Below, piece after piece: positions 2,340-42,709 of a stretch of DNA of 64,000 nucleotides. Numbering within the stretch: position 1 is the stretch's first letter; each line of letters starts with the position of its first letter. The stretch covers positions 13,041,862 through 13,105,861 of the forward strand of contig NC_134675.1 of the NCBI RefSeq assembly GCF_030463565.1, given 5' to 3'. A model generated the notes under the pieces. The model made no database searches. It saw only the letters and a program-made list of their open reading frames with translations, and was not told where the DNA came from. The translations under genes and the position numbers were made by a program. Source of the stretch: Pelecanus crispus. Taxonomy: Eukaryota; Chordata; Aves; Pelecaniformes; Pelecanidae.

Positions 2340-2539
2340 CTAGGATGTCTTCACCAAATCATAGACATAAATATGGAAATCATCATCAAACTTGATGAAA
2401 TAGACAGATGGTTTGGCTTCAACTTGATGAATGACCATGCCAGTCCGTTTTGAGCCATCTTCTTTGGCATATTCCACTTGTTTGCCTACCAGGCTGTCCA
2501 CAACTTCACCTGGTTCCCGTTCTGCAGGAGGTGAATCAT
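2340..2539 (-). CDS. SPIN1: Spindlin last coding exon, repeat III and stop
   Basis: The exon encodes residues 197-262, from [20 protein letters not shown] to the conserved end YVYDLVKTS, then TAG at 2342-2340. The acceptor TTACAG ends at 2540. It carries the third Tudor-like repeat. Confidence 0.95.
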
Positions 2540-5500
2540 CTGTAATATGAAAATACAATGTATTTTGGTAGACATTTATGGATTTGTTCTAATATACAAA
2601 ACTGCAGAGCCTTCTTTAAAAGTTAAGAAACAATCACAAGTTTAAAATGCAGAGTATGTCTAAAACAAGTTGAGTTGTTCAGACAAGCACATAACTATTG
2701 CCATGCTTCTAGAAAGTATAGTCACAGAATTTTTTTTTTTTTAGGTTATACCATCTTCAATTTTATGAAGTAAAAAATAGCACTTCAATTGGTTAGAAAA
2801 GTAAATCTTTTGACATGAAGGTTTACACACCAATTACAGAACATTTTCGTAGATAATTGAATTTAAGCCCCCAACAGAACAAGGCACTGAGTCTCTTTAA
2901 CAGAAAGGCAGGTGTGCTAGAACTCCCTCTTCCCACATGCTTTATCCAAAATGTAAATGCAAACATGCCATTGCAACAAAACCACATCTTCCAAGCTAAG
3001 TGTAACTTCCTTAATCAATAATGCTGTTAAAAGGGGCTTTTGATTTCACACTAGAATGGATACTGTTGAGAAGTCTAACTATATTATTTGCTTTTCTAGC
3101 AAAATCTACCCGGAAGTATCCTTAAGGACACAATTCACATTGTTTGTAAATGATCCAGATTCAGGGAAGGCAGCTCATAGTTCAGAGTGTCTTAGAAACA
3201 GAGGTAAGTAGTAGATAGTCTCAGGAAAAAAAGAGCGCATTAAAAACTTAATTCTTAAATATGGAAAGCATAAGCCTTTTAGTTTATTTTTCTAAGATGG
3301 AAGAAAGCAAAGCAGAATTTAAAAAGGAATTGCAAGGTATTTGGAGGTGCCAATTCTGAAAGAGCTTGCTTTATTTGTTTAGGAATAGGAAGGTCACTTT
3401 TTCCATTAACATTTGTGGCTCACTCTCTTCAAGCCTCAGATATGTTGCTTTTTGTTAGGCTGGAAAAAATCTGAAAACATAGGATTACTACAGAGGTTAT
3501 GCAAATAAGTGCCATTTGTTTACTCAGCCATCAGACTATTTGTTATCAGTGCTAGATCTGAAGTAAGACAGTCTCAGAAACTCAATGAATTAATTTTAAA
3601 TAATATTTATGTAGTGCATTGCATAGCCAAACATTAGTTATCTAATTAATAATTTACTTTAAAGCAAAAATTGCCTCTCTGTCAGAGAAGTGCTTTTGAG
3701 GTGCAGGAGAGAAATGAGAGTACAGTATTCCTGACAAACTTTTTTCTTCTTTTTTTGTACTAGCTATCCAAATCTCTTGAACAATACTGATTCTGTGAAA
3801 ATCCTTCTATATTTATAGGAAAAAAACTCAATAACTTTCACTTCAGGAAAGGAAGAAAAAATATCCCTCCTAACCTATTGAAAAATTTTTCATGTTTATG
3901 TGTTTAAACATGTGAGAGAAAATGAGTTTTCAAAAGATTAGTGCTTTTTTCCTCCAACAAACTATTCAAAAGCTTTCCAAACTGAAGATGCCTACCCAAA
4001 CTAAATTAATCTGACTATTTTAGTTAGCCCCAAAACATTATTCTTATAAGAACTGCTCCAGAAATACAGCTCCTTGAGATGGCTCTTGATTTGTGACACT
4101 TCTATAAGAAAATGACAGTGGAAGGCTTCTAGTTTGTCAATTTCTGTTAAAAAAATCTAAGTGTAATCTCTTCCACAATAGTATGTATATCTTTATCAGA
4201 ATTAGGAATTATTACGGAAAAGGATTTTCCAGTATTTATTGCATATTTCACCACTGATTCAAGTAAAATATTTCAGAAATTGTTTTATACAGATGTATTT
4301 TCTGTTGTACTGTCACCTTTGTTAGTTTTGATACTTAAAAAGATCCTTGTTTGTCAACTCTCTTTTCCATACATAAACCATAAGCCAAACAATAACACAA
4401 AGAGAGATGCTGCTTTCCAGAAGAAAAACGTAACTGGCCTACTTACTGGAATCAGGCATAATGCGAAGGTCACCTTCTTTATAATCATCTAAGAGTTGGT
4501 ACATGTACAAGACAGGATCTTTCTCGTAGGTAATATAAAACCATGTGTTCATAATAGGAGCTCGAGCCAAGACCATCCCCCTCCATTCATCTTTTGAGCC
4601 ATCCTCTGTCTCAAACATATGTTCCACAGCTTTGCCAATCATTGTGTCTGCCAGGTGGGCATCGCTAATTCGAGATGAAGCTGAAATGGTAGCAGTTCAT
4701 AAGTATGTCCATTCAAAAGTACAGAAATAATAAGTCTTTGTAAAAAATAATCTTTATCCAGATTCATGAATTAATTTGTTTGAAAGTTAGTCAATTCACA
4801 TACAAAACAAATACTGTCCATTCCAGAGAGTTGAAGACCAAAGAACTGCAGAACTTGAAGAATTATTTTAACATGTTAACACTCTTATTGACATTTTCCA
4901 TCATTGTACACACACCCCCCCAATTAATCAAACTATCATAATGCAAGGTAAAAGGAGACCAATATAGGCCACAGCAAAGAACAGTGTCTGTATTTTAAAT
5001 ATTTGTATTGTGGGGGGAGGCGAGGAAGAGAGGTTAAATCACAGAGCAGCTGTATGAAGTTATTAATGAAGGTGTTTGGTTTGGTTCCCCCTAACCCCAT
5101 TCTAGAGACCGCTACTGATCTCTTTGCAGTCAGGAAAAACAAGAAATTATTCCATTCAGAAATAAGTAATTACTAGGGTAAACTTTGAACTTTGCAGTTT
5201 GGAAAAACCTGCAGTTTAACAATTCAGTGCTAATTATGAAACCCAATAAAGCCTTGTTACTAGTCAAGTTATTTCACTTAGAAAATGCTTTTTTCCCTCC
5301 ATTTGTAGTAATACCCAGGGAAAGCACATGAAAAAAACCCCCAACCAAGCACATAATTACTGTCAAACACACACAAGACAACATAGCCAGGACATTTCTC
5401 AGCTGGCTCAGAGTTTAAATTTTAATAGAAATATCAATGTTACATGTACATAAGCTTGTTAGGGATAAGACTCTAAACAAGAAAAAATACAGAATTTACT

Positions 5501-42705: not shown

Positions 42706-42709
42706 TCAT
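42654..42709 (-). CDS. SPIN1: Spindlin exon with start codon
   Basis: The coding part is 42705-42654, encoding [17 protein letters not shown] plus the first base of Gly18. It ends at a GTGAGG donor whose first base is 42653. An ACAG acceptor ends at 42710, so the exon probably starts at 42709 and carries only four bases of 5' UTR. An out-of-frame ATG sits at 42709-42707 immediately before the true start. Confidence 0.9.

Follow-up and report, generated by a model that had tools for sequence, protein, structure and literature searches.

How does a spindlin gene remain whole within DNA that is about half transposon, and on which chromosome does it lie? We addressed these questions in a 64,000-nucleotide stretch of the Pelecanus crispus genome (the window; GCF_030463565.1, contig NC_134675.1, positions 13,041,862 to 13,105,861). 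The window sits on a 22.2-Mb contig of the source assembly (C45), which we compared with an 86.8-Mb contig (C46) that carries the single other spindlin locus found there; one spindlin locus was found on C45. The window gene is almost certainly SPIN1W, which is the gametolog on the W chromosome of SPIN1, a gene for a histone reader, and the assembly that of a female bird. Its parts are as follows, with counterparts on C46, where the gene (SPIN1Z) spans 48813339-48835374.

42654..42705, minus strand: coding exon 1, from the ATG onward, 52 nt (C46 48813339-48813390)
20189..42653, minus strand: intron 1, 22.5 kb, 60% repeat (C46 intron 1: 12.1 kb, 13% repeat)
20140..20188, minus strand: coding exon 2, 49 nt (C46 48825528-48825576)
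5925..20139, minus strand: intron 2, 14.2 kb, 63% repeat (C46 intron 2: 5.3 kb, 0% repeat)
5671..5924, minus strand: coding exon 3, first Spin/Ssty repeat (C46 48830914-48831167)
4447..4680, minus strand: coding exon 4, second Spin/Ssty repeat and, at presumed positions, the cage for histone H3 trimethylated at lysine 4 (H3K4me3) (C46 48832186-48832419)
2340..2539, minus strand: coding exon 5 including the stop codon, third Spin/Ssty repeat (C46 48835175-48835374)
1..2339, minus strand: part of the 3' untranslated region (UTR) and downstream sequence, with no repeat found in the part within the window

Joined together, the exons yield 262 codons and a stop codon with no internal stop, and all four introns have a GT donor and an AG acceptor. 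An earlier interpretation made from the letters of the window alone (the sequence-only reading) had described just such an uninterrupted five-exon frame with intact splice sites; it did not state the strand, which is minus, from 42705 down to 2340, and its end at 42709 takes in four bases upstream of the ATG. The protein matches the Pfam family Spin-Ssty (PF02513) with an E-value of 7.7e-76 in three stretches, the Tudor-like repeats. Its best match in the PDB is human Spindlin-1 (residues 1-262; 7e9m_A), to which it aligns end to end across 262 of 262 residues, while Spindlin-3, -2, and -4 scored lower. By sequence comparison, then, the gene is assigned as the SPIN1 orthologue and a member of the Spin/Ssty family. 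The H3K4me3 cage is likewise intact, as proposed earlier: all eight residues are kept at the positions that we take to form the methyl-lysine cage (W72, Y91, F94, and Y98; F141, W151, Y170, and Y177). The frame is not a product of chance, because every one of the 22 substitutions that separate it from the C46 copy is synonymous (P 3e-14 under random change).

The protein itself says nothing about the W. The sequence-only reading saw its residue differences from mammalian SPIN1 as fitting a slowly diverging W copy, and this argument fails. A search found 598 database proteins, of which 120 were listed and 12 were chosen by hand, fetched, and aligned. The window protein differs from human SPIN1 at nine residues; the turtle protein P0012 has eight of these nine states and lacks the exon that holds the ninth, and the copies on C45 and C46 encode one and the same protein over 262 residues. 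We therefore rejected these differences as W changes. From residue 35 onward the window protein matches the Gouldian finch protein P0025 and also P0024, which is labelled SPINZ; the spindlin-W-labelled P0017 (chicken) and P0023 (Pitangus) carry changes absent from it.

The W assignment comes instead from the two contigs. Avian Z chromosomes carry DM-domain genes clustered together, and C46 has three DM-domain matches within 99 kb, probably DMRT genes; a search of the assembly contigs found DM domains on C46 and C5 only, with no match on C45. NIPBL is present on both C45 and C46. The two spindlin copies differ in the 3' UTR, where we judged W and Z grouping from published primer fragments: at 16 of 19 decided substitutions the parrot and chicken W primers carry the C45 state, and the parrot Z primers carry the C46 state at 10 of 11. 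Among these fragments the C45 gene groups with the W copies of other birds, and not with Z-linked or autosomal ones. Repeats make up 51% of the spindlin locus on C45 versus 9.8% on C46, and 27% versus 6.4% in random samples of the two contigs. The DM matches on C46 but not C45, the shared NIPBL, the primer states, and the contrast in repeats therefore leave very little doubt that the window gene is the W gametolog, as the sequence-only reading had suspected.

Comparison of the two copies reveals how selection has acted. The spindlin loci share 42 colinear blocks, the coding span is 40.4 kb on C45 versus 22.0 kb on C46, and the flanking DNA is 73% identical (about 27% different). The 3' UTR and downstream sequence is 92% identical over the 3.9 kb compared. 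Exon lengths are the same; the silent differences fall 1, 2, 6, 11, and 2 in exons 1 to 5, corresponding to a synonymous divergence (dS) of 0.12-0.14. This pattern of substitution indicates that the C45 frame is under strong purifying selection. Exon 5 (2340-2539) holds only two of the 22 differences (binomial p 0.057), possibly through gene conversion or by chance.

Repeats fill the DNA around these exons. We called them by self-similarity and by homology to proteins of long interspersed nuclear elements (LINEs) and retroviruses, without a curated repeat library. They occupy 48% of the window by named repeat classes and 52% and 54% by self-repeats plus transposon-protein homology, in keeping with the earlier estimate of about half. 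The LINEs with reverse transcriptase are presumably of the CR1 type. CR1-type DNA makes up 22% of the window, and long terminal repeat (LTR) and retroviral DNA 19%. In this one window, then, LTR/retroviral DNA does not exceed CR1-type DNA, a difference from whole avian W chromosomes, where retroviral DNA is reported to be the main repeat class (PMC8310711). Window positions 1-8129, 8.1 kb that span exons 3-5 and as much of the 3' UTR as the window shows, contained no repeat that we could find, compared with at least 60% in introns 1 and 2; this may reflect selection against insertions there. Individual elements, together with a duplication, are:

11359..15128, minus strand: LINE with endonuclease and reverse transcriptase, presumably CR1-type, in intron 2
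23292..30195, plus strand: endogenous retrovirus in intron 1, antisense to spindlin, with an LTR pair and a gag-like piece
33564..35905, plus strand: LINE with reverse transcriptase, presumably CR1-type, in intron 1
9992..17620, plus strand: copy 1 of a duplicated segment of 7,629 bp
60437..64000, plus strand: visible part of copy 2, which extends past the window end to 68065 in window numbering

The coding region of the provirus is split into at least six open pieces, 30 of 555 aligned sites distinguish its two LTRs, and eleven stretches in the window belong to its LTR family. Among the matches listed for the gag-like piece (120 of 200), the best named are from ibis (62%), hawks, storks, and cranes. 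Separately, a repeat roughly 1.1 kb long, which contains tandem units of 39-45 bp, occurs in at least four copies (16495-17639, 40473-41586, 51344-51806, and 57038-57587), and a 240-residue open frame at 38485-39436, with named matches mostly in ducks and geese, is flanked by two 77-bp direct repeats 97% alike.

The two copies of the 7,629-bp segment are 100% identical, in direct orientation, and 50,445 bp apart; the segment ends in an LTR copy on the left and in the 1.1-kb tandem-unit repeat on the right. Because part of copy 1 aligns colinearly with intron 2 of C46, copy 1 is likely the original, and copy 2, which lies between a CpG island and exon 1, was probably inserted. Either the duplication is very recent or it arose as an artefact of assembly. 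The CpG island lies at colinear places upstream on both contigs (C45 13135087-13136836; C46 48780100-48782524), about 50.5 kb from the ATG on C45 and 31 kb on C46, and it is shorter and less GC-rich on C45. The upstream DNA and introns have diverged between the copies.

Why has this copy persisted? We propose that SPIN1W would be transcribed in females and, by doubling the dose of one and the same H3K4me3 reader, would make up for the presence of just one Z. The exons and 3' UTR would have been conserved by purifying selection on dose, while LINE and retroviral elements would have accumulated in the introns and flanks because the W does not recombine. Dosage maintenance, and not a female-specific protein function, is in our judgment probably the reason that the gene survives. 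Published work agrees with this view: SPIN1 ranks with the most conserved of 132 gametolog pairs, and the W genes that were retained are described as dosage-sensitive, not feminized (PMC7599627); SPINW has a ratio of nonsynonymous to synonymous rates (dN/dS) of 0.09 (PMC4278454); and it was expressed in the female chicken head at embryonic day 4 (PMC1386693).

The W copy might instead be kept for a role specific to females. PMC1386693 restates a previous proposal that SPINW of chicken has a part in the differentiation of the gonads, and the divergence of introns and upstream DNA would suit such a role; we nevertheless consider it unlikely, given the dosage sensitivity of retained W genes and a protein identical to the C46 product. 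Since the proteins are identical, any functional difference must be regulatory. Z-to-W gene conversion that kept the coding exons alike would also account for identical proteins, for a dS below the difference in flanking DNA, and for the low count in exon 5. Silent differences in all five exons and the W-primer states retained in the 3' UTR make it quite doubtful. It is more improbable that the copy is intact in sequence but silent or weakly expressed in this species: 22 of 22 synonymous substitutions and intact splice sites argue for ongoing selection, even though the shorter CpG island, the long repeat-filled introns, the duplicate inserted between island and exon 1, and, in an excerpt of PMC2821371, a lack of SPINW expression in chicken at gastrulation all point that way. 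That the window holds a Z copy in a repeat-rich stretch, with C46 being something else, is scarcely credible and already contradicted: the protein cannot separate the copies, the SINT primers (Z-specific in chicken in an excerpt of PMC6396912) match both with zero mismatches, and LINE DNA is as abundant here as retroviral DNA, but C46 has the DM-domain matches, its 86.8-Mb length, and 10% repeat at its spindlin locus, and the C45 3' UTR matches W primers.

Dosage maintenance remains our preferred explanation. Tentatively, we go further: the W and Z products may be interchangeable in this lineage, with the W copy surviving by dose alone and its regulation drifted or specialised. We raise interchangeability because the proteins have not diverged despite about 27% divergence in the flanks, and drifted regulation because the CpG island is shorter and less GC-rich, its distance to exon 1 has grown, and a very recent 7.6-kb duplicate from intron 2 lies between.

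W-linked SPIN1 is already a known conserved avian W gene, and the window is an ordinary, clean example: like chicken SPINW and parrot spindlin-W, it is a W copy of SPIN1 with an intact frame, and the chicken and parrot W primers match it at most sites where C45 and C46 differ. The locus adds an unusually clean SPIN1W from one more bird genome, perhaps already annotated, and illustrates that one window with an intact gene among packed repeats can be assigned to the W after a check of the assembly. What is of interest is that the W and Z proteins are completely identical, which allows dosage to be separated from protein divergence in asking why a handful of genes survive the decay of the W. The window protein equals the Z product; isoform X1 of chicken spindlin-W (P0017) has A20T, G21R, V69I, and an unrelated first exon. 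The proteins P0013 (Haemorhous), P0014 (Phalacrocorax), and P0023 (Pitangus) have leading residues that look LINE or retroviral, so their genes are repeat-embedded too; over the shared part every one of them carries one or two altered residues, with no insertion shown to be common to the window. P0013 and P0014 are named 'spindlin-Z-like', but their leading exons seem to derive from LINEs or retroviruses, and both may be W copies labelled Z.
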